From the IMG/VR virus record IMGVR_UViG_3300034066_001346, positions 1 through 64,000 of that record: a DNA stretch of 64,000 nucleotides; one strand, written 5' to 3'. A model generated the notes under the pieces. That model had not been told where the DNA came from. It saw only the letters and a program-made list of their open reading frames with translations, and searched no databases. The position numbers were made by a program, and so were the translations under genes. Shown piece by piece: positions 11,917-43,716 of the stretch. This DNA comes from a virus. Each line of letters begins with the position of its first letter. Position 1 is the stretch's first letter.

Positions 11917-12054
11917 ACTCTAATTATACCAGCGTATAATCCTAGTCGACTACAATATCAGATCTCATAAAATGTTAATATATATTTTTCTTGTATGATA
12001 CACACCATTTAGAATGTCCGAATTGTCCGATAGTGCGACCATATGACCAGTCTT

Positions 12055-12138
12055 TGTGACCCTTATCACATACCTTTTTTTAGAAATGTCCGAATTAAAC
12101 CCATTTTGGATTTGAATTTGTCAGTGGCTTAGTATAGT
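12055..12138 (+). promoter_or_regulatory. CRP/GlxR-like site and MotA-type promoter P1
   Basis: TGTGA-CCCTTA-TCACA (12055-12070) lies upstream of TTGTCA (12118-12123) and TATAGT (12133-12138; the 11-bp register would give TAGTCT). The site centre is about 83 bp before the expected start. Further copies of CCGAATTGTCC flank it (12018, 12087). Confidence 0.7.
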
Positions 12139-12185
12139 CTTAAGACATAAGGTTAATCAAGGTGATTAACAGAAAGGAGTTAGAA

Positions 12186-12368
12186 ATGACTAACTCAAAC
12201 TTTGCAAGAGTAGCAACTCTTAGCGACTATCCACAAGGGTTAATGAACCTTTGTCAATGCGGACAGGTTGTTTTAGCCCCCGCTACAATTCACGACATTT
12301 GCCTACCAAATGGCACTTGCCTACATACCGCTTGCGGTAGAGACATTTGGGGAAACCCAATCGCCTAA
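12186..12368 (+). CDS. Small Cys-rich protein
   Basis: This 60-residue protein has CQCG and a later CLPNGTCLHTACG, a likely zinc site. The ATG at 12186 follows AAAGGAG; an upstream in-frame ATG at 12162 lacks one. First gene of the 12-23 kb early-type region. Not recognised. Confidence 0.65.
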   Translation: MTNSNFARVATLSDYPQGLMNLCQCGQVVLAPATIHDICLPNGTCLHTACGRDIWGNPIA

Positions 12369-12385
12369 CGGCGTGTCTCCCCAAT

Positions 12386-12408
12386 TTGTCACCGCTATAC
12401 GCTACAAT
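12386..12408 (+). promoter_or_regulatory. MotA-type promoter P2
   Basis: TTGTCA (12386-12391), 11 bp, TACAAT (12403-12408). The leader carries ACGAAAGAAG before the ATG at 12444. Confidence 0.75.
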
Positions 12409-12443
12409 TCCTACTATAACTACTAACGAAAGAAGAACAGACA

Positions 12444-12614
12444 ATGACTATCACTTACTCAATCTGGCAAGGCTCTAAACTAATCTCGGTTAATAATGTT
12501 GCACATGAGGTCAAGGCTATTGACCACTTAATCAACTCGCTTAACGATAGCGAACTAGGCAAGGGTAAGAAATTTACCGCTAATGTAATGGACATCAAGG
12601 TAGGGGCTAACTAA
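12444..12614 (+). CDS. Hypothetical protein
   Basis: 56 residues, MTITYSIWQGSKLISV..., no known motif. It is followed by four overlapping genes (TAATG junctions), forming one operon from promoter P2. Confidence 0.6.
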   Translation: MTITYSIWQGSKLISVNNVAHEVKAIDHLINSLNDSELGKGKKFTANVMDIKVGAN

Positions 12615-12799
12615 TGACTAAATGGGACACGATACAAGCAGATGTGCAAGACCAATACGCACACCTAGCAGAAGAAGAAATGTATGAGCAACTAATGGCA
12701 GAAGAAGAAGATGTATTCGGATTTGTTAAGGCTATACAGATTGACCACTTAACAGATGAACAACTAGATGAGGTATTCGACATGTTTGGAGATAAGTAA
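12614..12799 (+). CDS. Acidic helical protein
   Basis: This 61-residue strongly acidic protein is rich in Glu and Asp with Met/Leu heptads. Its charge and size resemble small host-takeover or DNA-mimic proteins, but this is speculation. Both junctions overlap by 1 nt. Confidence 0.65.
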   Translation: MTKWDTIQADVQDQYAHLAEEEMYEQLMAEEEDVFGFVKAIQIDHLTDEQLDEVFDMFGDK

Positions 12800-12990
12800 T
12801 GACTATCGAACTAAACGAATACGGCTTCATGTTTGACATGGGCGATTTTATCTATCTATCCCTATCATGGGCTTTTATTATCTTGTCCGCCCTTGTTTTT
12901 ATCGGGTATAAGGTTTATAAGAGAGTGCAAGCCCATAGATGGGCATCACTAGTAAAAGATGAACTATCTACAGATGAATGGGGTATCTAA
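12799..12990 (+). CDS. Single-span membrane protein
   Basis: 63 residues with one transmembrane helix at about 18-38 (FIYLSLSWAFIILSALVFIG) and a basic then acidic tail. Overlaps both neighbours. Unknown role. Confidence 0.65.
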   Translation: MTIELNEYGFMFDMGDFIYLSLSWAFIILSALVFIGYKVYKRVQAHRWASLVKDELSTDEWGI

Positions 12991-13103
12991 TGAATAGACT
13001 ACTTACTACACTAGTGCAACTATCTATTGCTATCCCCGCCCTATACATGGCACGCATTGTATGGCATGACTTTATTAGCGAGATGAAGGAGTTATTTAAT
13101 TGA
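12990..13103 (+). CDS. Very small membrane peptide
   Basis: 37 residues with a hydrophobic core (LVQLSIAIPALYMARIVW). It overlaps the upstream stop by 1 nt and the next start by 4 nt, and carries that gene's AAGGAG site near its end. Confidence 0.55.
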   Translation: MNRLLTTLVQLSIAIPALYMARIVWHDFISEMKELFN

Positions 13104-13312
13104 GTATGACACAATTTGAAAGAGACCTAACTATAAAAGAAAGCTTTATGGATTTACTTAATGAGATTTATCCAGAGGTAAAGATTGGGTACTCTACCTT
13201 TACCCCCGCCGAGATCTTGGAGTGTTGCGACCCTATCGCCTTTAACATTGGTGTTATAGAGCATGAGGACTACATGCGTGAGTGTGGCATGCTAGATGAT
13301 GAAGATATGTAA
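13100..13312 (+). CDS. Hypothetical acidic protein (TTG start)
   Basis: This 70-residue protein is best read from TTG at 13100, because AAGGAG is 8 nt upstream; an ATG at 13106 is 14 nt away. It contains ILECCDPIAFNIG and ends in acidic residues. Last gene of operon P2. Not recognised. Confidence 0.6.
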   Translation: MSMTQFERDLTIKESFMDLLNEIYPEVKIGYSTFTPAEILECCDPIAFNIGVIEHEDYMRECGMLDDEDM

Positions 13313-13337
13313 ATCATACTAGCCTAGCGGCGTGTCG

Positions 13338-13474
13338 GCTTGACAATAGTCAAGCTGGCCCCCAAAGGAGAGGGGGCTGTGGATAAGTTAAGAAGGCCTG
13401 TGGAAAAACCCTGAAATTTTGTGAGCAACATCACATCAAATAGATTAGGATTTGTCGGTCATGTGTGATAGGCT
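13338..13474 (+). promoter_or_regulatory. Intergenic cassette: hairpins, DnaA boxes, CRP-like site, promoter P3
   Basis: In order: hairpin GCTTGAC/GTCAAGC (13338-13355), GCCCCC/GGGGGC hairpin (13358-13377), a perfect DnaA box TGTGGATAA (13378-13386), a relaxed box TGTGGAAAA (13399-13407), CCCTGAAA, TGTGA-GCAACA-TCACA (13420-13435), then TTGTCG (13452-13457), 11 bp and a weak -10 TAGGCT (13469-13474). The hairpins lack a U-tract. The CRP-like centre is about -53. Confidence 0.75.
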
Positions 13475-13499
13475 TTCGTTATCAACGAAAGGAAAACTT

Positions 13500-13646
13500 A
13501 TGTGTGCAACATGCTATGCTAACGCTAACGGAATAAAGTTTTATTCTGTTTCACCATCTACTCTATGCGATACTCATTTCTTTGAGTGGCAAGAGGAAAA
13601 AATGTATTGGGAATTAGACCGCTCAACGGAAGGACTTTACATATGA
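13500..13646 (+). CDS. Small Cys-containing protein
   Basis: 48 residues, MCATCYANANGIKF..., with CxxC and later C/H residues, possibly a zinc knuckle. The ATG at 13500 follows ACGAAAGGA; an in-frame ATG at 13461 lies within the promoter. It overlaps the next gene by 4 nt. Confidence 0.6.
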   Translation: MCATCYANANGIKFYSVSPSTLCDTHFFEWQEEKMYWELDRSTEGLYI

Positions 13647-13807
13647 GCACTTTTGTATCTGTAAACTCTGTATGTGGTGCAGTATCTACCACAATCGATA
13701 TGTATGATTTAGAATTAAATCCGCATGGTGTTATCTGTTGCGATAATTGTCAAAGCATTGTGTTATGCCGTGAGGCGTGGAATTTTTTATACAAGGGGGT
13801 AAAGTAA
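13643..13807 (+). CDS. Small zinc-finger-like protein
   Basis: 54 residues with GVICCDNCQSIVLC, a likely metal-binding cluster. The start at 13643 follows GGAAGGAC and overlaps the upstream stop (ATGA). Not recognised. Confidence 0.6.
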   Translation: MSTFVSVNSVCGAVSTTIDMYDLELNPHGVICCDNCQSIVLCREAWNFLYKGVK

Positions 13808-13953
13808 TGAATACAGATCTGTTAAAAGATGTCGCATCTATTGCAAAAGAAAAGCATGGCGATAATTGGCTTGCTTATCTTTGGGGCGCATCTCAAGTTT
13901 TGCTTAACGAAAAAGATTTGCAAATAATTTTAGAAACTTTGCAAGATAATTAA
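13807..13953 (+). CDS. Hypothetical helical protein
   Basis: 48 residues (MNTDLLKDVASIAKEKHG...) with an all-helical pattern. Start overlaps the upstream stop by 1 nt. Not recognised. Confidence 0.55.
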   Translation: MNTDLLKDVASIAKEKHGDNWLAYLWGASQVLLNEKDLQIILETLQDN

Positions 13954-13990
13954 ATAAAGGCGGCGTGTCGACTTGACAAAGTCGGCAGCT

Positions 13991-14172
13991 GCCCCCAAAG
14001 ATGAGGGGGCTGTGGATAACTTACGTATAAATGTGGAAAACCCCTGAAAAATTGTGGATAACTTGTGTACGACACGCCCGAGATCTTGTGAGATTTATCA
14101 CATGGCTTGAGCGTCTCACATCTTGGAATTACTGGCTAGTAATTAGTTTATGTCAGTGGGTTTTGGTACAAT
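13991..14172 (+). promoter_or_regulatory. Intergenic cassette: hairpin, three DnaA-type boxes, CRP-like site, promoter P4
   Basis: GCCCCC/GGGGGC hairpin (13991-14010), perfect DnaA boxes at 14011-14019 and 14053-14061 with a relaxed one at 14032-14040, CCCCTGAAAA (14041-14050), TGTGA-GATTTA-TCACA (14087-14102), ATGTCA (14150-14155), 11 bp, TACAAT (14167-14172). The CRP-like centre is about -84. The three DnaA-type boxes are 21 bp apart. Confidence 0.8.
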
Positions 14173-14202
14173 ACTCTTATCAACAAACGAAAGGCGGACA
14201 CC

Positions 14203-14409
14203 ATGTCAGCAAATGTCTATACAATCGAAAGCCTACTTGTAGGAAAAACCTATCGCTCAAAGTCTCTTACTGGAGAAATCATAGACGCAGAAAAGTCTGA
14301 TGATGTCTGGTATGCAGATTGCGATACTTATAAAGTGCAGGTTCGTCCTCACTATTCAGCACCGCTAAACCTCAAAGACACTTATCGTTATTTGGCAGTA
14401 AAGATTTAA
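14203..14409 (+). CDS. Hypothetical beta-rich protein
   Basis: 68 residues, MSANVYTIESLLVGKTYRSK..., SH3-like alternating pattern. Start follows ACGAAAGGCGGA. Single-gene transcript from P4. Not recognised. Confidence 0.6.
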   Translation: MSANVYTIESLLVGKTYRSKSLTGEIIDAEKSDDVWYADCDTYKVQVRPHYSAPLNLKDTYRYLAVKI

Positions 14410-14479
14410 CGGGTATCGAAACAGGGGTAGTTTAGAGGGAGTCCTCGCCCAATGTCGTAAGTAAGAACCCTCACAAAAT

Positions 14480-14502
14480 TTGTCAGCCCTAACTGATACA
14501 AT
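14480..14502 (+). promoter_or_regulatory. MotA-type promoter P5
   Basis: TTGTCA (14480-14485), 11 bp, TACAAT (14497-14502). No CRP-like site upstream. The leader contains AACGAAAGGA. Confidence 0.75.
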
Positions 14503-14535
14503 AACTTAAACAAACAAACGAAAGGAAAACTATAA

Positions 14536-14688
14536 ATGGGAAATTTCTTAGATGTAATGGACGAGGGAACTATCTCCGTCATCACTTGCGAGGATTGCTT
14601 AGGATTTGGCGCAATCTTTTGGGGAGATGAAAACTCCTATGATGTAGAGCCATGCGATTGCGTAACTAACGAAATTGGAGATTACTAA
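14536..14688 (+). CDS. Small Cys-rich acidic protein
   Basis: 50 residues with CEDCLGFGAIFWG and CDC, a probable zinc ribbon of the DnaJ-type CxxCxGxG flavour. Start follows ACGAAAGGA. Not recognised further. Confidence 0.6.
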   Translation: MGNFLDVMDEGTISVITCEDCLGFGAIFWGDENSYDVEPCDCVTNEIGDY

Positions 14689-14689
14689 A

Positions 14690-14893
14690 ATGTATAAGAT
14701 TACTTTATCCTATGACGGAAATTCTGTTCGCTGGAGTAATGACTATGATGATGCATTGGAAGCATTTACCGCATTTGCTAAATTTACTGATGTCGGATTT
14801 GCTAACGAATACTCAACGATTAACCTATCAATGCCAACAGGCAAGATGTACACAAAAGTAATTGACCGCATGGGAAAGGTAACAATTAAATGA
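14690..14893 (+). CDS. Hypothetical protein
   Basis: 67 residues, MYKITLSYDGNSVRWSNDYD..., with an alternating beta-alpha-beta look. ATG at 14690 is 1 nt after the upstream stop. Ends overlapping the next start (ATGATG). Not recognised. Confidence 0.6.
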   Translation: MYKITLSYDGNSVRWSNDYDDALEAFTAFAKFTDVGFANEYSTINLSMPTGKMYTKVIDRMGKVTIK

Positions 14894-15081
14894 TGACCCG
14901 TAAAGACTATGTCGCAACCGCAGAAATTCTAAAGTATGTTAGCGATAAAACTCATCCCGCTGTTTTTTCTAAAATGGTAAATGATTTTGCGGAAATGTTC
15001 GCAAAGGATAACGACCGATTTGATGTAACACGATTTCACGAAGCGAGTGGATACAATGTTCCAAAATTCACTTCGAGATAA
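14890..15081 (+). CDS. Hypothetical protein
   Basis: 63 residues, MTRKDYVATAEILKYVSDKT..., helical with conserved-looking FAEMFAKDNDRFDVTRF. Proteins of this pattern are common as unknowns in actinophages. Operon P5. Confidence 0.65.
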   Translation: MMTRKDYVATAEILKYVSDKTHPAVFSKMVNDFAEMFAKDNDRFDVTRFHEASGYNVPKFTSR

Positions 15082-15190
15082 AGTAAAACGCATTCAGGAA
15101 TTGCGCCGCAGTAATGCGGCGCAACCTGTTCGCAATAAAAAAACTTACACACGCAAAATAAAACACAAAAAGAATTCTGATCATGATTGA
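15056..15190 (+). CDS. Small very basic protein
   Basis: 44 residues, rich in Arg and Lys (KVKRIQELRR, RNKKTYTRKIKHKK). It overlaps both neighbours. A nucleic-acid-binding role is plausible from charge only. Confidence 0.5.
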   Translation: MFQNSLRDKVKRIQELRRSNAAQPVRNKKTYTRKIKHKKNSDHD

Positions 15191-15275
15191 TTTTATTGCT
15201 GCAGTAATTTCAATTGGAATTATTTTTGCAATGGCCACACCGCTATACGTTGCATATAAAGTGTGGAAGAGTTGA
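15183..15275 (+). CDS. Very small membrane peptide
   Basis: 30 residues with one transmembrane span (FIAAVISIGIIFAMATPLYV). Overlaps the upstream frame by 8 nt. Last of operon P5. Confidence 0.5.
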   Translation: MIDFIAAVISIGIIFAMATPLYVAYKVWKS

Positions 15276-15290
15276 CAATTCTTTAAAGCT

Positions 15291-15427
15291 GCCCCCAAAG
15301 GTGCGGGGGCAAAGATCTCTTTAAGTCAAGCACCAAAACACCCTGGAATTTTGTGAGGTTTATCACATAAATAAATTAGATAAACATTGGGCGTGTTGGA
15401 ATTTTTGTCAGTGGACCATGCTACAAT
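15291..15427 (+). promoter_or_regulatory. Intergenic cassette: hairpin, CRP-like site, promoter P6
   Basis: GCCCCC/GGGGGC hairpin (15291-15310), CCCTGGAA (15341), TGTGA-GGTTTA-TCACA (15352-15367), TTGTCA (15405-15410), 11 bp, TACAAT (15422-15427). The CRP-like centre is about -74. No DnaA box here. Confidence 0.8.
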
Positions 15428-15457
15428 TCCATTATCAAACAAACGAAAGGTAAAACA

Positions 15458-15664
15458 ATGGTATCAATCGCACACTCTCTAAACTTCGTAACAGAGGTTG
15501 ATGAAACTAACCCAACAGGTGCCCGTCTATTGGCACTTGATAAGGCGTCACAAATTGCTATGCTAGAAGGCGCATTAAAGTCTATGGTGCTACCTGCAAT
15601 TTATCCAGTACTAGAAACAATTAACGAAGGTGGCTCTTGGGCTATCGTAAAGGTGGCAGAATAA
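15458..15664 (+). CDS. Hypothetical protein
   Basis: 68 residues with a helical middle (LLALDKASQIAMLEGALKSM) and a short beta end. Start follows AACGAAAGGT. Not recognised. Confidence 0.6.
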   Translation: MVSIAHSLNFVTEVDETNPTGARLLALDKASQIAMLEGALKSMVLPAIYPVLETINEGGSWAIVKVAE

Positions 15665-15934
15665 ATGGGATACAACACTGCGCTAGATTTATCTAATGAA
15701 TTAGATTTAGAGGTTGCTCTTGGTTATCACTTGCAAGGTAATCACTATCCACCAGTTCCGCTTTCTATGGTGGAGCCTTGCATAGAAGCAATTGATGCTT
15801 TCTATGATGAGGACTACAATCGTGAAATTGCTTTACCTGAAGGCGTGTTATGGCGTGGACAGGTTACTGCACCCGCATCCGCAATTGTTGATGCACACCA
15901 CTTAAATGCTTGGCTACCAGAGGAGGAATACTAA
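15665..15934 (+). CDS. Hypothetical protein
   Basis: 89 residues, MGYNTALDLSNELDLEVAL..., with VLWRGQVTAPASAIVDAHHL. It abuts the upstream gene directly. Not recognised. Confidence 0.6.
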   Translation: MGYNTALDLSNELDLEVALGYHLQGNHYPPVPLSMVEPCIEAIDAFYDEDYNREIALPEGVLWRGQVTAPASAIVDAHHLNAWLPEEEY

Positions 15935-16074
15935 TGAACAATCTTTATTCTATCTTATCCGAAAGACACCCAGACGGAGACTTTAATGAAATGGATCTAT
16001 GGGAGGCTATCGCAGACTCAGAAGGCTTGGAGCTGAACGAAATTATGGACGGCGACCTAACAGAATACTTGTGA
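15934..16074 (+). CDS. Hypothetical acidic protein
   Basis: 46 residues, acidic and helical. Start overlaps the upstream stop after AGGAGGA. Its stop codon lies within the CRP-like site that follows. Confidence 0.6.
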   Translation: MNNLYSILSERHPDGDFNEMDLWEAIADSEGLELNEIMDGDLTEYL

Positions 16075-16125
16075 TGCTTATCACACCCCAGGGGCTTGAT
16101 AAATGTCAGACCCTAATGCTACAAT
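16070..16125 (+). promoter_or_regulatory. CRP/GlxR-like site and promoter P7
   Basis: TGTGA-TGCTTA-TCACA (16070-16085), ATGTCA (16103-16108), 11 bp, TACAAT (16120-16125). Centre about -54. The site overlaps the preceding stop codon, showing how compact the array is. Confidence 0.8.
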
Positions 16126-16151
16126 AACACCCTAAACAGAAAGGAAGCAAA

Positions 16152-16328
16152 ATGACAGTAAATGGATACACTTACAAGGTTGGCGATTTATTCACCACTC
16201 TTAAGTCAAAGAAAACTGGAGTAATCAAAGAGATTATTCCTAACGCATCTGGCTCGGTGCGTGTGCTACTGGAAATGCCAACAAAGGAAACTCGTTGGAC
16301 AACAGTTAGCAACAATAGCCTAGTATAA
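16152..16328 (+). CDS. Hypothetical beta-rich protein
   Basis: 58 residues, GYTYKVGDLFTTLKSKKTGV..., KOW/SH3-like pattern (V..G......SK.TG.I..I). Start follows AAAGGAAG. Possible RNA or protein interaction module; not proven. Confidence 0.6.
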   Translation: MTVNGYTYKVGDLFTTLKSKKTGVIKEIIPNASGSVRVLLEMPTKETRWTTVSNNSLV

Positions 16329-16350
16329 GGAAGTGGAGGGGTCTCACTAT

Positions 16351-16373
16351 TTGTCAGACCCCTCCGCTATAAT
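16351..16373 (+). promoter_or_regulatory. MotA-type promoter P8
   Basis: TTGTCA (16351-16356), 11 bp, TATAAT (16368-16373). No CRP-like site. Confidence 0.8.
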
Positions 16374-16409
16374 ACAATTAACCAAACCAACTAACGAAAG
16401 AGGAAACAA

Positions 16410-16832
16410 ATGGCTAGAGGAAAAGCAATCTCAGTAAAAATCGCAACACCAAAGGTAATCAAGGCACTTGAGGCAAAGTTAGTAGAACTTAACGCCAACT
16501 ATGCTAATCAAGAAACAAACGAAGCAAAGTACAAGAAGGCTATGGAAAAGTGGCAGAAGGAAATTACTGCCTATGCCGTTTCTAACATCAAGAAGGCAGA
16601 AAACTTCCGTACCAACTATCGTGCTTGGAATAACACTCTCAACATTGACTTTGATTTGACAGTTACACAATCAGACCTGCCAACAGAGCCTGAGCGTGAC
16701 TTTGAGCAGATGGGTCGTCACACATACCTAGAGCAAAAGCAAGAAATCGAAAACGCAATTCGTATTCTCAAGATGACAGATGAGGAAACAGTTAATACCA
16801 GCACTTACAATGCGGTTGCTCGTTATCTCTAA
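16410..16832 (+). CDS. Hypothetical helical protein
   Basis: 140 residues with Lys/Glu-rich helices (about 20-70) likely to form a coiled coil, and a C-terminal helix with EQKQEIENAIRILKM. Start follows ACGAAAGAGG. A hairpin with a TTCG loop (ACACC/GGTGT) lies at about 16870. Not recognised. Confidence 0.65.
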   Translation: MARGKAISVKIATPKVIKALEAKLVELNANYANQETNEAKYKKAMEKWQKEITAYAVSNIKKAENFRTNYRAWNNTLNIDFDLTVTQSDLPTEPERDFEQMGRHTYLEQKQEIENAIRILKMTDEETVNTSTYNAVARYL

Positions 16833-16904
16833 ATAATCTAACGACCTGAGCATGTCGCCAAACTGCTCACACCTTCGGGTGTCCCTACTAACAAAGGTAA
16901 TAAA

Positions 16905-17165
16905 ATGGCTAATCGTTTCAGAATAGAAATCTATGATGAAAACAAGCAAAATGATTTAACAATTTATTCAGAGCAAGGCGTGGACAAAGACTATTTAACT
17001 GAATTAGTTTATAGCAACATAGCACGCTTTGATGGTAATGTAAAAGCATTTGTATTCGATACAATTAAAAAGAAGAAGACAACTGCAATGTTTTTACCAA
17101 TGGAAATAATTACATCTGTTAAATCTAAACTATCTAATACTGCTAAGGAATTACACTTAGCATAA
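16905..17165 (+). CDS. Hypothetical protein
   Basis: 86 residues, MANRFRIEIYDENKQNDLTI..., alternating strands then a basic region (DTIKKKKTTAMF). No promoter of its own is clear; probably read through from P8. Not recognised. Confidence 0.6.
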   Translation: MANRFRIEIYDENKQNDLTIYSEQGVDKDYLTELVYSNIARFDGNVKAFVFDTIKKKKTTAMFLPMEIITSVKSKLSNTAKELHLA

Positions 17166-17225
17166 AGCTTGGGGCGGGATCTTAATGCCTTTTGTGTCCC
17201 GCCCCATCTTCCCAACTTTAAATCT

Positions 17226-17364
17226 GCCCCCAAATATGTGGGCGGTTATCCACAGACTTACGGCCTCCTGTGGAAAACCCCTGAAAATTTGTGAGATTCA
17301 TCACATTTTATTTGTCGACAAATGACTGTCTAATCTTGTTAATGTCAGTGCCCTATGTTATACT
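17226..17364 (+). promoter_or_regulatory. Intergenic cassette: hairpin, DnaA boxes, CRP-like site, palindrome, promoter P9
   Basis: Hairpin GCCCCCA/TGTGGGC (from 17226), perfect DnaA box TTATCCACA (17246-17254), relaxed box (17269-17277), CCCTGAAA (17278), TGTGA-GATTCA-TCACA (17290-17305), palindrome ATTTGTCGACAAAT (17310-17323), ATGTCA (17342-17347), 11 bp, TATACT (17359-17364). CRP-like centre about -74. Confidence 0.8.
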
Positions 17365-17396
17365 CAGTTTATCAACCAACCGAAAGGAAATAAATT

Positions 17397-18401
17397 ATGG
17401 CTCATAATCTAGAAACTGAAAATGGCGAAGTTGCTTTTGCTTTGCGTGGAAAACCAGCATGGCATGGATTAGCAAATCGCATCTTTAATCAAGATGAAGA
17501 AGTTACAACACAAACAATGCTTAATGAAGCAAAGTTGTCTAATTGGAATGTTCGTCTATCTCCAATCACTGAGCACATTCCAGAATCATGGAATGATGTT
17601 TCTACCGCATCTCTTGTGTTGCGTGACAATCCATTCAATGGCGGAACTGATGTTCTTGCTACTGTTGGTAAGCGTTACAAGCCAGTGCAGAATGAAGAAT
17701 TGTTTGCATTTGCTGATGCTATTCATGATGCAGACCCAAATTGTTTTTGGGAATCTGCTGGCTCATTGCGTAGCGGTAAAGTTGTTTTTGGTACTGTGGA
17801 CATTCCCCGCACAATGGTGCTTGACCCACAAGGTGCAAATGACGAGACAAAACTTTATTTAATTGTTTGGACATCTCATGACGGGTCAGTTGCTGTTCAG
17901 GCTGCTGTTACTCCTGTTCGTGTTGTATGCCAAAACACTCTTAACCTTGCAATGCGTAATGCAAAGCAATCTTTTAAGATTCGTCATACACAATCAGTTG
18001 AAGGACGAATTCAAGTTGCCCGTGAGACTCTCGGTCTTGCTCTAGGATACTTTGATGAATTTGAGAAGGAAGCACAAGCAATGTTCAATCAATCAATTAC
18101 TGATGCAGAATTCTCAAAGTTGATTCAGACAATCTACCCAAAGCCTGAAAAGGATTCTAAGGGTGCGCTAAAGAAGTGGGAAAACAAAGTTGTTTTGCTT
18201 GATGATTTGTATCATAACTCACCAACCAATGCGACAATCAAGGGAACAAAGTGGGGCGCATTTAATGCACTTACTGAACGCCTAGATTACTATCGTACTG
18301 CACGAGGAAATTCTGAATCACTTATTGCAGGTGCATCAGGATTTGACCCTGTTCTTACCGCAGAAAAAAATAAAATTAAAAAATTAGTTTCTGCGTTTTA
18401 A
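17397..18401 (+). CDS. DUF932 / TIGR03299-type phage-plasmid protein
   Basis: This 334-residue protein has the pattern of the DUF932 family: PAWHGLA near the start, NWNV, DVLATVGKRYKPVQNEELF, and TPVRVVCQNTLNLAM in the middle. The family is widespread in phages and plasmids but its biochemical function is not established. It is the largest gene of the plus-strand region and a single-gene unit under P9. Start follows CGAAAGGA. Confidence 0.85.
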   Translation: MAHNLETENGEVAFALRGKPAWHGLANRIFNQDEEVTTQTMLNEAKLSNWNVRLSPITEHIPESWNDVSTASLVLRDNPFNGGTDVLATVGKRYKPVQNEELFAFADAIHDADPNCFWESAGSLRSGKVVFGTVDIPRTMVLDPQGANDETKLYLIVWTSHDGSVAVQAAVTPVRVVCQNTLNLAMRNAKQSFKIRHTQSVEGRIQVARETLGLALGYFDEFEKEAQAMFNQSITDAEFSKLIQTIYPKPEKDSKGALKKWENKVVLLDDLYHNSPTNATIKGTKWGAFNALTERLDYYRTARGNSESLIAGASGFDPVLTAEKNKIKKLVSAF

Positions 18402-18443
18402 TAAATAAAAATCCTGAGCAAGATTTAAAACTGCTCACCATTT

Positions 18444-18517
18444 GGTCTGTTAGCTCAGTTGGTTAGAGCGCTACCCTGTCACGGTAGAGGCCGTCGGTTC
18501 AAGTCCGATACAGATCG
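18444..18517 (+). tRNA. tRNA-Asp (GUC)
   Basis: Acceptor GGTCTGT/ACAGATC, anticodon stem CTACC/GGTAG with loop CTGTCAC, T arm GTCGGTTCAAGTCCGAT, discriminator G. Confidence 0.9.
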
Positions 18518-18521
18518 CAAG

Positions 18522-18595
18522 GTGCCATTAGCTCAGTTGGTTAGAGCCCCGAACTCATAATTCGGTCGTCGTAGGTTCAAGTCCTACATGGCACA
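18522..18595 (+). tRNA. tRNA with CAU anticodon (Met or lysidine-Ile)
   Basis: Acceptor GTGCCAT/ATGGCAC, anticodon stem CCGAA/TTCGG with loop CTCATAA, T arm GTAGGTTCAAGTCCTAC. The 1-72 pair is G-C, so it is not an initiator of the usual C·A type. Elongator Met is likely; Ile2 cannot be excluded. Confidence 0.85.
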
Positions 18596-18708
18596 CCTTA
18601 CAGTTGCAGAAAGATGCCCCCATACCTGAAGGCAGCCTAATTCCGTTACGACCAATTTAAAAAAACCCCTGAAATCTGTTGACATTTGTCAGTGGCATCC
18701 GCTATAAT
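18596..18708 (+). promoter_or_regulatory. Intergenic cassette with hybrid promoter P10
   Basis: It holds CCCCTGAAA (18666-18674) and a promoter with both a consensus -35 TTGACA (18679-18684, 18 bp from the -10) and TTGTCA (18686-18691, 11 bp from TATAAT at 18703-18708). It lacks a CRP-like site. The hybrid shows that the TTGTCA box lies in the spacer and is distinct from a -35 hexamer. Confidence 0.8.
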
Positions 18709-18738
18709 TCTGACATATCACCAACGAAAGGATATCAA

Positions 18739-19392
18739 ATGCCAAACTGGGTATTTAATGGATTAACCGTAGAAGGTAATCCTGAATCAGTTAAGAAAAT
18801 GATGGCTCAATTAAATAAGCCATTTACTCAAATGCATGATTCATGGGATGTAAGTAAGAATACATTCATGAAGAAGAATACTTTATATGCAGAGCCTGTC
18901 TTTGCATTTCATAATATCTATAACTACATGGATGCTGGTATTACTGAAGAAGTATATCTTGGTCAGCCTGACTATTCCCTCCCAATTTCAGAAGCAATGA
19001 AGTGTCTTACTGATGACTGGTATAACTTTAATATCCGTGAGTGGGGAACTAAATGGGATGTTGCCGTATCTGTAAATGACAAGTATCCTGATACTAATAT
19101 GGAGGAAACCGCCAATGGTGATAACCATGTAGTTCATTATAATTTTCAAACTGCTTGGGGTCGCCCAATGGGTGCATTAACTAAACTATCTGCACAATAC
19201 CCTGACTTGCTATTTACTTTATCATATGAGGAAGAGACTGGCTGGGGCGGTGAACTAGAAATCCTTCGTGGTGTAGTTATCTCAGAATCAGAATACGATA
19301 ACATTTGTCGTGAATGTGATGAGACTGATTGTTTAATCTATGATGATGAAAAGGGTGTAGAGACATGCCAGAAGTGTGGGTATGAATCATGA
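18739..19392 (+). CDS. Api92-like ferredoxin-fold protein
   Basis: This 217-residue protein starts MPNWVFNGLTVEGNPE and has NIREWGTKWDV and FQTAWGRPMGAL, the hallmarks of the Api92/YubB-like family of phage and plasmid proteins. A C-terminal CxxCDETDC...CQKCG adds a zinc ribbon. Start at 18739 follows ACGAAAGGA. Function of the family is not established. Confidence 0.8.
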   Translation: MPNWVFNGLTVEGNPESVKKMMAQLNKPFTQMHDSWDVSKNTFMKKNTLYAEPVFAFHNIYNYMDAGITEEVYLGQPDYSLPISEAMKCLTDDWYNFNIREWGTKWDVAVSVNDKYPDTNMEETANGDNHVVHYNFQTAWGRPMGALTKLSAQYPDLLFTLSYEEETGWGGELEILRGVVISESEYDNICRECDETDCLIYDDEKGVETCQKCGYES

Positions 19393-20009
19393 CAGATTTA
19401 ATTTCATCTAAATATACATTTGTCTGTGACCCAAATGAATGTGATTCTTTAATCGAACTAACATCATCAGATGGATTTGGATTCCCATCTGGTGTGACCG
19501 AGCTCACATGCCCTTGTGGTCGCAAGACTACATTATTGTCAGTGGAGCATGCTACACTACCAACAACAAACCAAACGAAAGAGGAAAAAATGGACCAGCC
19601 AGTAATCGATAACCACTACATGACACGAGACTTCCTTGAGTCACAGTTAGTAGAAAACAAAGCACGCATAGCACAGTTAGAAGAACAGATTCAGCGTGTA
19701 ACTCAGCGTGACTATGCAACCGCATCAACCTTAAATAAGTTGCGTGATGACATGAAGATATTTACTCTGGAGGGACTTGATGACGATTCTATTACAGAAT
19801 ATCAAGCCGAAGAAATTGCAAGCATCTGCGGTTTCGAACTAACAAATGAATTTGAGTTGACTGTAACAGTTCAATATTCAGTTACAGTTAATGCTAGAAG
19901 CGAAGAGGATGCTATTAATTCAATTCACGATACAGACTTTGACACAGTGTCATATGATGAACCAATTACATATTTGTCATCATCTATAGATTCAATCGAG
20001 GTGGACTAA
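19389..20009 (+). CDS. Zinc-ribbon leader fused to a second protein with an internal start
   Basis: The 206-residue frame begins at 19389 (ATGA overlap with the upstream gene) with a zinc-ribbon-like part (CDPNEC, CPCG, residues 13-44). In the same frame a full promoter and ribosome site (ACGAAAGAGG) precede ATG at 19590, giving a 139-residue protein (MDQPVIDNHYMTRDF...) with a helical start and a beta-rich acidic end. So two products are likely: a long coupled form and a short form from its own transcript. Confidence 0.7.
   Translation: MTDLISSKYTFVCDPNECDSLIELTSSDGFGFPSGVTELTCPCGRKTTLLSVEHATLPTTNQTKEEKMDQPVIDNHYMTRDFLESQLVENKARIAQLEEQIQRVTQRDYATASTLNKLRDDMKIFTLEGLDDDSITEYQAEEIASICGFELTNEFELTVTVQYSVTVNARSEEDAINSIHDTDFDTVSYDEPITYLSSSIDSIEVD
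19493..19558 (+). promoter_or_regulatory. CRP/GlxR-like site and promoter P11 inside a coding frame
   Basis: TGTGA-CCGAGC-TCACA (19493-19508), TTGTCA (19536-19541), 11 bp, TACACT (19553-19558). Centre about -64. All of it lies within the open frame starting at 19389. Confidence 0.8.
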
Positions 20010-20224
20010 TGTACTTTGAACTTACTGCACCAACTAAGGTGGCCTATGCACGGGCCACCTGGGAGGCGGAGATGCTTGGTTTAGATCCTGAAGCCAGCGA
20101 AGAGCCGTTGACATTCAACATTGGAACTGGTAGTATTGAGAAAGTAACACACCTTAGAGAGAAATACAATCTTGAAGAAGTGTATGTTTCTGAATTCGAA
20201 CCAACGGGATATATAAGGAGTTAA
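20009..20224 (+). CDS. Hypothetical protein
   Basis: 71 residues, MYFELTAPTKVAYARATWEAE..., helical start then beta end. Overlaps upstream stop by 1 nt. Not recognised. Confidence 0.6.
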   Translation: MYFELTAPTKVAYARATWEAEMLGLDPEASEEPLTFNIGTGSIEKVTHLREKYNLEEVYVSEFEPTGYIRS

Positions 20225-20225
20225 A

Positions 20226-20372
20226 GTGTCAGACTACAAAGAAGGATTTACAGACGGGTACAAGTTTGCTCGTGAAGAACTAATGGAGAAGTTGCGTGAG
20301 ATTGATATCACCGATATCGATTCATGGTTACTTAATCAATTAGCAGATATGATTGAAGGCAACGACCTGTGA
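20226..20372 (+). CDS. Hypothetical acidic protein (GTG start)
   Basis: 48 residues, MSDYKEGFTDGYKFAREELM..., a pattern (GF.DGY..A.EE) common in short actinophage proteins. GTG start at 20226 follows AGGAG; overlaps the next gene by 4 nt. Confidence 0.6.
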   Translation: MSDYKEGFTDGYKFAREELMEKLREIDITDIDSWLLNQLADMIEGNDL

Positions 20373-20575
20373 CAGAAGACTTAACTAGATGGATTGGCTG
20401 TGACCAATGTGGCACGGCTCAAGCAATGTATGTAGTTAAACTAGTAGAAGGTGAGCTTTTCTTTTGTGGCCACCACTACAATGCAAGCAAGCGTGGCCTT
20501 GACAAGGTCGCATATGAAGTAGTAGAATTAAACAAAACCGAAGCAGTACCTACATTAGAAGAGGCGGAACTATAA
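20369..20575 (+). CDS. DUF7455-like zinc protein (GTG start)
   Basis: 68 residues with WIGCDQCGTAQAMYVV...GELFFCGHHYN, i.e. CxxC plus CxHH, matching a short zinc protein family common in actinobacteria and their phages. The family function is unknown. GTG overlaps the upstream TGA. Confidence 0.75.
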   Translation: MTEDLTRWIGCDQCGTAQAMYVVKLVEGELFFCGHHYNASKRGLDKVAYEVVELNKTEAVPTLEEAEL

Positions 20576-20940
20576 TGGGAGACAGAGCAAATTTTGGATT
20601 TAAACAAAACAGCGGTGACACATTGTTTTTGTACGGGCACTGGGCAGGTCACAACATGCTTGGCAACTTGGCAGCAGCGCTGTCTGCAGCAGAGCCAAGG
20701 TGGGGTGACTCATCCTATGCAACACGAATTGCTACATCACATTTAATTGGAGATGAATGGACTTCAACAACTGGTTGGGGCTTTAGCATTAATCGATTGG
20801 ATGACAATGAGCACAAGGTACCTGTTGTCAATTGGGCAGAACAAACCGTAACTCTTTTTGAAGAGGACCTTACTACAGTCGTAGCAAAGTTCGGCATTGC
20901 TGAATTTGTAAATAGGTATACATTAGTCTCAGTTGACTAA
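20575..20940 (+). CDS. Conserved phage protein, unknown
   Basis: 121 residues, MGDRANFGFKQNSGDTLFLY..., with YGHWAGH and W-rich strands. I recall this opening from many actinophage and plasmid unknowns. No function is assigned. Last gene of operon P11. Confidence 0.65.
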   Translation: MGDRANFGFKQNSGDTLFLYGHWAGHNMLGNLAAALSAAEPRWGDSSYATRIATSHLIGDEWTSTTGWGFSINRLDDNEHKVPVVNWAEQTVTLFEEDLTTVVAKFGIAEFVNRYTLVSVD

Positions 20941-20945
20941 TATGA

Positions 20946-21082
20946 TATAATAGTATTTTAGGGTGCTTCTATCTAGTCGTATGGCCAGGAGCTAAGTAAG
21001 GCAGAGATTGTTACTTTCGTTGGTTACTCTTAGCAGCCCTAATCTATGGTCCCCCAGGTAAGATCTGGGGGATCTTCTTTTT
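20946..21082 (+). ncRNA. Unknown ~125-nt structured RNA with own promoter and terminator
   Basis: TATAAT at 20946-20951 is followed by AGGGTGCT (20960-20967), which pairs with AGCA-G-CCCT (21032-21040) across about 65 nt. An inner AGAG.../...CTCT hairpin lies at about 21004-21030. A terminator follows: GGTCCCCCAG/CTGGGGGATC (21048-21074) then TTCTTTTT. No tRNA, tmRNA or 6S pattern is recognisable. Expected length is about 125 nt. Confidence 0.7.
21048..21082 (+). terminator. Intrinsic terminator
   Basis: Ten-base-pair GC-rich stem (one G-U) with a 7-nt loop and U-rich tail; ends the unknown RNA. Confidence 0.9.
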
Positions 21083-21134
21083 GCCCACAAAGACATGAGG
21101 GTATATTATTCTCTTTAAGAAGTCAAGTAAAAAT

Positions 21135-21219
21135 CCCCTGAAATTTTGTGAGCTTTGCCACAATGTGGCGGGTATCACATAGGAAATCTATTCCATTTGT
21201 CAGTGCCTTAATATATAAT
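21135..21219 (+). promoter_or_regulatory. Intergenic cassette: two CRP-like sites and promoter P12
   Basis: CCCCTGAAA (21135), TGTGA-GCTTTG-CCACA (21147-21162) and TGTGG-CGGGTA-TCACA (21164-21179), each with one imperfect half, TTGTCA (21197-21202), 11 bp, TATAAT (21214-21219). Centres at about -71 and -54. Confidence 0.75.
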
Positions 21220-23530: not shown

Positions 23531-24042
23531 TTAAACATAGCTCACAGAATTATCCACATCCTTATCCACAGGGTGTGGATTTTTTTGTGGATAAAATGTG
23601 TGGGCATGGGGCGAAATTTTTCTATTACGACAACATAATAAAAATCCCTGAAAATTATATAGAAATGTCGACAAATCTATTTAAATACATACAGAATTGT
23701 AGACAAATTGCCATAAATTGTCCAGAATATAATAGAATAAATATACATAAATATTGGACAAAGAGGGCGAAATTGTCTATTTACGACAGTTGACAAAAAT
23801 TCCCTGAAATGTATCTATTGACAAATATGGGGGAATATGCCAGATTAGACAAAACATTACGAAATGTCAATCATTAGGATGACGCCCAATTACATGTAGT
23901 AGATTTGTCGATAAATAGATAGTAATCCAGGGTAAATTAATAGTAAATTATTTCATAGATACATAGATCTATGCAGTCAAAATGGGCTTCTAAGGGGGTT
24001 TTAAGACCTTTATAAAAGGCGGGGGATACTAGGATATGGAGC
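23531..24042. other. Repeat-rich gene-free block, candidate replication origin
   Basis: Contains three perfect DnaA boxes (23550-23558, 23562-23570, 23586-23594), about ten copies of TTGTC/GACAA between 23665 and 23910 (for example ATGTCGACAAAT at 23665), and a ~50-bp degenerate direct repeat (23609-23660 and 23766-23820) carrying GGGCGAAA, TCTATT, ACGACA and CCCTGAAA. It is AT-rich and lies where plus and minus gene blocks converge. DnaA boxes plus iteron-like repeats suggest an origin; the sequence alone does not prove it. Confidence 0.5.
23564..23588 (+). terminator. Intrinsic terminator built from DnaA boxes
   Basis: ATCCACA (23564-23570), loop GGG, TGTGGAT (23574-23580), then seven T. 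The stem arms are DnaA-box sequences. It should end the 23168 transcript. Confidence 0.75.
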
Positions 24043-37430: not shown

Positions 37431-37731
37431 TTGGTGCCCCCTCTAGCTCGCATCTTACTCCATATGACTCTATCAACCTTTTTACCTTGTTGACATAATC
37501 AATAACCATTTCTTTCTTAGTACCTTCATACTGTAAAAAATTGTCTTCATAAAGTCTTATTGCTAGAAAATCGGGATACATTACTATGTCCATTAATAAA
37601 TCAAAAACTGGCTTATTGATTTCTCTAACCCTTTGAGCCATTTCTTTTGTATAGAACACTGGCTTATTTGGCTCACCGTTCCACTGATTAATTCCGTGCT
37701 TAAAATGATTTTTGTCTTTATCAATAAACAT
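37414..37731 (-). CDS. Hypothetical protein
   Basis: 105 residues with helical central part. Overlaps WhiB gene by 11 nt, so shares its transcript. Not recognised. Confidence 0.6.
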   Translation of the reverse strand: MFIDKDKNHFKHGINQWNGEPNKPVFYTKEMAQRVREINKPVFDLLMDIVMYPDFLAIRLYEDNFLQYEGTKKEMVIDYVNKVKRLIESYGVRCELEGAPSERVL

Positions 37732-38065
37732 TTTTTTTCTTCAATCTTTTCCATATTTCTTGATCTTTGTGTGTATTACGAGATCTGTTTATACTTCCTG
37801 CATTTAAATATACCCCGCCCCAAACTCCATACTCTTCATTTTCCACACCTGCGTCGTAACACATTTTAATAACAGGGCAAGACAGGCAGGCCTCATCTAT
37901 ATTTTTTGCAACATTAACATCTGATTCATACTTATCATAAAATAAATTAGTATCCATGCCTCTGCATATACCTAGATGCCACCACTCAAAATCTTCCTGA
38001 TCAACACCTAGGTTATTTAAAATATTTGACATATCGCTTTGGCAGCTTCCATAGACCCTGATCAT
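37721..38065 (-). CDS. WhiB-family iron-sulfur regulator
   Basis: 114 residues: ligands C34, C60, C63 and C69 (ACLSCPVIKMC), then GVWGG (80-84) and a basic end with RSRN and KRLKKK. WhiB-like proteins bind the primary sigma factor in actinobacteria and sense O2 or NO through a 4Fe-4S cluster. They are specific to actinobacteria and their phages. It may redirect host transcription. A dual-operator promoter lies upstream of its operon. Confidence 0.9.
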   Translation of the reverse strand: MIRVYGSCQSDMSNILNNLGVDQEDFEWWHLGICRGMDTNLFYDKYESDVNVAKNIDEACLSCPVIKMCYDAGVENEEYGVWGGVYLNAGSINRSRNTHKDQEIWKRLKKKNVY

Positions 38066-43038: not shown

Positions 43039-43716
43039 CTATCTAATTGAGTTATTTATGTGAAGAAGCTTAATTGACTCTACGTTTACATGCTTTGGCA
43101 TAGAAACAGACCACCTAACTGCCTCAGCAACATCCTCTGGAGTCAGCCTATTTTCAGCGTCACCCTGATTTCTGCTATTAACATTACCAGGTGCGATCTC
43201 GGTAACCCTGACATTTTGGTATAGCATTTCCATTCTTAGCAGTTCAGATAGCGCAACCTCTGCATGCTTTGCTACTGTGTATCCAGAACCTCCACGATAT
43301 ACATAATGACCGCATGTCGAAGTTATAAAAATAACATGCCCATCTTCATTCTTGATCATATTTGGGACCAGGAGTCTAGTAAGATTTACTGGTGCTAGAA
43401 CATTTAGATTATAAGCGTATCTCCATCTATCCAATGAGTCATTTATTATTGGAAGGTTAGTTGCTCCCCCGCCTGCATTATTTACTAAAACAGATACATC
43501 TTTATCACCTAAATATGAAACAAACTGGTTTACTGCGTCCTCATCAGTAATGTCTAGAGTGTAAGACTCAATGTTTGGGTCACCTGACGCTAAATCTTCA
43601 ATTTCATCTGTGCTTCTAGCAACAGCAATAACATGAAAGCCGTCAGAGGAAAGAGCCTTGCAGGTGGCCTTTCCAATACCAAAACTTGCTCCAGTTACAA
43701 TTGCAATCTTTTTCAT
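43039..43716 (-). CDS. Short-chain dehydrogenase/reductase
   Basis: 225 residues: TGASFGIG (8-15), NNAG, STCGH and YTVAK catalytic tetrad, typical classical SDR. NAD(P)-dependent oxidation or reduction, possibly of a sugar or lipid precursor. It abuts an SGNH-like gene, part of a surface-modification set. Confidence 0.88.
   Translation of the reverse strand: MKKIAIVTGASFGIGKATCKALSSDGFHVIAVARSTDEIEDLASGDPNIESYTLDITDEDAVNQFVSYLGDKDVSVLVNNAGGGATNLPIINDSLDRWRYAYNLNVLAPVNLTRLLVPNMIKNEDGHVIFITSTCGHYVYRGGSGYTVAKHAEVALSELLRMEMLYQNVRVTEIAPGNVNSRNQGDAENRLTPEDVAEAVRWSVSMPKHVNVESIKLLHINNSIR

Follow-up and report, generated by a model that had tools for sequence, protein, structure and literature searches.

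CRP-type sites in helical phase with TGTCAG promoters in a group of uncultured viruses, probably freshwater actinophages

Introduction

Which protein reads the palindrome TGTGA-N6-TCACA where it recurs upstream of promoter-like elements in uncultured virus record IMGVR_UViG_3300034066_001346, and to what effect? The window, that is the whole stretch analysed (64,000 nt of a 96,797-base record), had been predicted to carry such sites, with the consensus of actinobacterial CRP/GlxR, at helical-turn intervals upstream of MotA-type promoters, as for class I CRP activation. We know of few phage promoter systems built around a host global regulator, and our literature search, whose coverage is incomplete, found nothing on CRP operators in such phage promoters.

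Results

Sites and core promoters of the window

The window holds seven perfect TGTGA-N6-TCACA sites and two with one mismatch (Table 1), exactly where the original prediction had placed them. Dinucleotide shuffles of the window average 0.20 perfect sites, with not one shuffle in 100 reaching seven; scanning the remainder of the record gave no further perfect site. The sequence is the exact CRP/GlxR consensus and the flanks are somewhat A/T-rich. With the start set at 7 nt past the -10 hexamer, the centres of the nine sites lie, in order of coordinate, at -84.5, -53.5, -84.5, -74.5, -54.5, -73.5, -64.5, -71.5 and -54.5, within about 1.5 bp of the earlier values. GC-rich hairpins of the type GCCCCC...GGGGGC, probably terminators of the preceding genes, are found upstream of several operators (13358-13376, 13991-14009, 15291-15310 and 17226-17243). 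The open frame 19389-20009, which holds the site and promoter at 19493-19558, seems to be a fusion of a small upstream gene and a downstream gene with a possible start at about 19591.

The whole 96.8 kb record contains 11 matches to TGTCAG-N10-TAnnnT. They are confined to the + strand of the 14.1 to 21.9 kb interval; the match at 14204, at the start of a coding sequence, is probably false. The cores at 12119 and 13453, two of the nine, are imperfect: in the first the hexamer TATAGT follows after 8 bp rather than 10, and in the second the box is TGTCGG and the -10 is not clear. A reading of these cores as host-type promoters was rejected, as TGTCAG-N10-TAYAAT occurs only three times in 41 presumed host genomes, much like its reversed control. 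The cores (box at about -28 to -23, extended -10) form a phage-specific class that probably needs a phage factor at the box.

Table 1. Features of the window. d, distance (bp) between site centre and the T of TGTCAG; sites are TGTGA-N6-TCACA.
Feature	Coordinates	Strand	Remarks
Perfect site	12055..12070		d = 56 to TGTCAG at 12119
GTCCGAATT element	12088..12096	+	31 bp upstream of TGTCAG at 12119; more GTCCGA at 12016 and 12025
DnaA box TTATCCACA	13378..13386	-	upstream of 13420 site
Perfect site	13420..13435		d = 25 to variant TGTCGG at 13453
DnaA box	14011..14019	-	upstream of 14087 site
Second DnaA box	14053..14061	-	upstream of 14087 site
Perfect site	14087..14102		d = 56 to TGTCAG at 14151; orthologous promoters mostly d = 56/57
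Core TGTCAG-N10-TACAAT	14151..14172	+	motif match
Core of the same class	14481..14502	+	no perfect CRP-type site; others at 16352, 18687 and 21895
Perfect site	15352..15367		d = 46 to TGTCAG at 15406
Core TGTCAG-N10-TACAAT	15406..15427	+	motif match
Perfect site	16070..16085		overlaps stop codon of upstream gene; d = 26 to TGTCAG at 16104
Core TGTCAG-N10-TACAAT	16104..16125	+	motif match
DnaA box	17246..17254	+	upstream of 17290 site
Perfect site	17290..17305		upstream of DUF932 gene; d = 45 to TGTCAG at 17343
Core TGTCAG-N10-TATACT	17343..17364	+	motif match
DUF932 gene	17397..18401	+	downstream of 17343 promoter; query for unbiased relatives
Perfect site	19493..19508		within open frame 19389-20009; d = 36 to TGTCAG at 19537
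Core TGTCAG-N10-TACACT	19537..19558	+	motif match
One-mismatch site	21147..21162		out-of-phase half of abutting pair; d = 43 to TGTCAG at 21198
One-mismatch site	21164..21179		in-phase half of abutting pair; d = 26 to TGTCAG at 21198
Core TGTCAG-N10-TATAAT	21198..21219	+	motif match
WhiB-like gene	37721..38065	-	mark of an actinobacterial host

Conservation in related viruses

The architecture of site and TGTCAG promoter is shared by well over 100 stretches of IMG/VR; a scan for a site followed by TTGTCAG within 25-54 bp returned at least 119. Searches of 257 Gb of bacterial genome contigs for a stricter form of the composite, and of 81 Nanopelagicales genomes for a looser form, gave no match; no prophage or host copy was seen in either set. 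In the viral loci, which were selected by motif, spacer 6 accounts for 386 perfect sites, and no other spacer from 0 to 20 for more than 8.

Since the IMG/VR set was motif-selected, relatives were also fetched by protein alone, taking the best 80 loci per search and hence close relatives. Core and site are present in all 61 distinct DUF932 upstreams (57 perfect sites, 4 with one mismatch), always at 45-47 bp; the half-sites are 100% and 99% conserved versus 81% for the spacer, and the flanks vary too. For the gene at 14203 the core is present in 44 of 47 upstreams (41 with a perfect site, 3 with a one-mismatch site), mostly at 56/57 bp and in several cases at 109-174 bp. None of the protein-fetched upstreams had a control motif, even with one mismatch allowed. 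Conservation in related phages, on which the original prediction had made itself depend, is thus borne out.

Helical phasing and register

The nine sites of the window alone are phased with R = 0.85 at 10 bp (p ~0.0007), the 21147 member (-71.5) being out of phase with the others. In the first scan, of motif-fetched loci, the commonest distances were 36, 46 and 56/57 bp, the range stopping short of 26 and 67; two further scans widened it on both sides. Dereplication was by downstream-protein families, DNA single linkage of the promoters having collapsed into almost one cluster. With one distance per family (39 families, 37 of them in the scanned range) R is ~0.67 (p<5e-5), a value reached in none of 20,000 simulations. 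The larger set of 178 families (183 family-distance pairs) gives peaks at 25/26, 35/36, 45/46, 55-57 and 67/68 bp with a best period of 10.4 bp, at which R = 0.44 versus a maximum of 0.264 in 50,000 simulations; the predicted one-turn spacing holds over many downstream-gene families. Sites at 41/42 bp, half a turn off phase, are a substantial minority, and 36, 46, 56/57 and 41 are among the commoner distances within a single gene family.

The register relative to the -10 is a separate matter. In the phage promoters the site centre lies 42.5, 52.5, 62.5 and ~73 bp from the -10; in sigma70-type promoters with CRP sites from the same viral collection (33 stretches only) it lies at ~50, 58 and 68. 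The predicted centres at -54.5, -64.5, -74.5 and -85 depart from the class I register of -61.5, -71.5 and -82.5, a comparison made via the -10, as the starts are predicted ones. The likeness to class I activation claimed earlier is thus half right: the whole-turn spacing agrees, but the register departs by ~3-4 bp from the canonical one and the core is not host-type.

DnaA boxes and a GTCCGA element

At least one DnaA box is present in each of the 61 distinct DUF932 upstreams, and 271 copies of TTATCCACA were counted in 1.1 Mb of viral loci versus 8-49 copies of control 9-mers. Phasing of the boxes relative to the CRP site or the core is weak after dereplication (p ~0.01-0.05 at the best periods). 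Where the + strand gene block ends, three consensus boxes (two forward, one reverse) lie within ~45 bp beside a T-run (23550-23594) and may serve as a replication origin or to titrate DnaA.

The element GTCCGA(ATT) has a preferred distance of 31/32 bp from TGTCAG in related viruses and goes with the off-phase promoters: GTCCGA lies 28-34 bp from the core in 30 of 55 promoters of the 41/42 class versus 24 of 409 in-phase promoters (p=7e-18, which is optimistic since related viruses are counted repeatedly).

The virus and its presumed host

The record, a linear contig, is probably a fragment. Its large terminase is ~62% identical to those of the Streptomyces phages Comrade and Gilson (Stanwilliamsviridae), the closest named relatives found; the DUF932 gene has relatives among Streptomyces phage genes, and the WhiB gene is related to that of Stanwilliamsviridae phages. 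Of the 31 large records that show the architecture, 14 encode a clear homolog of the terminase (one more match is marginal) and 19 encode WhiB, placing at least half of them in one broad actinophage group. The carriers are probably a large group of uncultured freshwater actinophages. WhiB, the low GC content and the agreement of the phage TTATCCACA boxes with those at the origin of Planktophila versatilis point to Nanopelagicales as the likely hosts. A strain of Planktophila, LanE-43, is in cultivation (PMC10202952). A search for the same motif system in Comrade found the core absent and a single isolated perfect site, which lies in a long noncoding gap (43389-43404 of the stretch read, ~122.4 kb).

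A CRP ortholog in the presumed host order

The Crp-type HTH was found neither in the record nor in 50 related viral records, while the control was detected in 14 of 14 genomes. No phage-encoded CRP was thus seen in these records, and the earlier statement that the phage encodes none, made for the window, now covers the 96.8 kb record and its 50 relatives. Within Nanopelagicales, 59 of 61 genomes have a GlxR/CRP ortholog. The single one of P. versatilis, next to what looks like an endonuclease III gene, has M. tuberculosis CRP as its best PDB match over the whole length, and its recognition helix (SRETVNKALADF) is identical to that of the M. tuberculosis protein. The predicted actinobacterial consensus agrees with both the spacer of exactly 6 and, provided that the host is as supposed, the recognition helix.

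Of 21 spacings of TGTGA-Nk-TCACA, k=6 is the rarest in the P. versatilis genome, with no perfect and 17 one-mismatch sites versus 24-64 one-mismatch sites at other k; selection against sites that are bound would have this effect. CRP-type sites show no intergenic enrichment in this genome, so the presumed host's own CRP regulon is not visible.

Class III and CYTH adenylate cyclases were each found in 0 of 31 genomes of the presumed host order, and the proposed tie of phage genes to cAMP or carbon status is left unsupported. CRP is thus probably not the usual cAMP sensor in the presumed hosts, where it may act without cAMP.

Discussion

The arrangement suggests that phages use a host regulator to switch on a block of small genes, and we think it likely, from the sequences compared here, that the sites serve as operators to which the CRP/GlxR of the host binds. 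Recruitment of a host regulator, as originally proposed, has gained from the absence of a Crp-type HTH in the viral records, the ortholog in the host order and the avoidance of the site in one host genome; the host itself is a presumed one. In the mechanism that we infer, a phage factor would bind the TGTCAG box of the phage-specific core, and a host CRP dimer would sit upstream in whole-turn steps on one face of the helix. Bound CRP would touch either the alpha C-terminal domain of RNA polymerase or the factor on the TGTCAG box, and the contact would raise transcription of the block of small, presumably early, genes. Distances that vary by whole turns are, by analogy, a class I-like mark of contact by a flexible domain across short DNA. 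The shifted register may mean either that the TGTCAG-bound factor alters the geometry or that CRP contacts this factor. A fuller version, in which host CRP acting without cAMP, host DnaA at the consensus boxes upstream of the CRP sites and the phage TGTCAG factor form a helix-phased composite promoter that works on phage DNA only, the host genome having been cleared of sites, is possible and is put forward tentatively.

A different reader of the palindrome might be a phage-encoded DNA-binding protein of another fold that activates the TGTCAG promoters. Many small phage proteins belong to no known family, and Nanopelagicales genomes have almost none of the site array or of the TGTCAG core, each of which is specific to the phages. 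Such a protein would, however, be recognizing the exact CRP/GlxR consensus with its A/T-rich flanks, and the host genome avoids precisely the N6 spacing, which suggests that the reader is a host protein; we regard a phage reader as unlikely. That host CRP is bound merely to be titrated, the sites being decoys with no direct effect on the promoters (and the TTATCCACA boxes doing the same for DnaA), would fit the many perfect sites and DnaA boxes on presumably multicopy DNA. Decoys need neither a place upstream of promoters nor a helical phase, yet both are seen, and this account seems to us very improbable.

The phasing itself could be only apparent, a relic of a few ancestral promoters copied together with their spacing. 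Some promoters do have long intervening stretches in common, and raw promoter counts are redundant, but the phasing persists with one distance per gene family, and most differences between orthologous promoters of one gene amount to whole turns. Shared descent is thereby largely refuted, and we give it the least credence of all. Operators read by host CRP/GlxR remain our preferred explanation. One composite architecture extends across many related viruses, whose hosts are probably the abundant freshwater Nanopelagicales, and its helical phasing strongly indicates a protein contact, which can be tested directly. Why CRP should stay conserved in a host order in which no adenylate cyclase is detected is a further question posed by the system.

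Among known systems, Comrade, one of the closest named relatives found, has no TGTCAG promoters and one perfect TGTGA-N6-TCACA in the 100 kb read. T4 middle promoters consist of a MotA box and a -10. The phage promoters resemble them in having a box ~10-13 bp upstream of a good -10 in place of a -35, and differ in that the box is TGTCAG and a phased CRP-type operator is added upstream; family searches made on part of the (fragmentary) virus record gave neither MotA nor AsiA. With the M. tuberculosis CRP and C. glutamicum GlxR regulons they share the consensus site and the recognition helix of the presumed reader. Unlike those regulons, it is phage genes that are targeted, and the presumed host genome has no perfect site and avoids near-perfect ones. 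E. coli class I CRP promoters of the lac type (Gaston 1990; Ushida and Aiba 1990, both as cited in PMC6301791) are alike in the consensus site, the variable upstream distance and the ~10.5 bp periodicity. Moving E. coli CRP from -61.5 to -64.5 lowers the interaction factor from ~760-fold to 6-fold (PMC6301791). Unlike these E. coli promoters, the phage promoters have a register to the -10 that is ~3-4 bp off, TGTCAG at -28 with no canonical -35, a viral array of sites and a doubtful dependence on cAMP.
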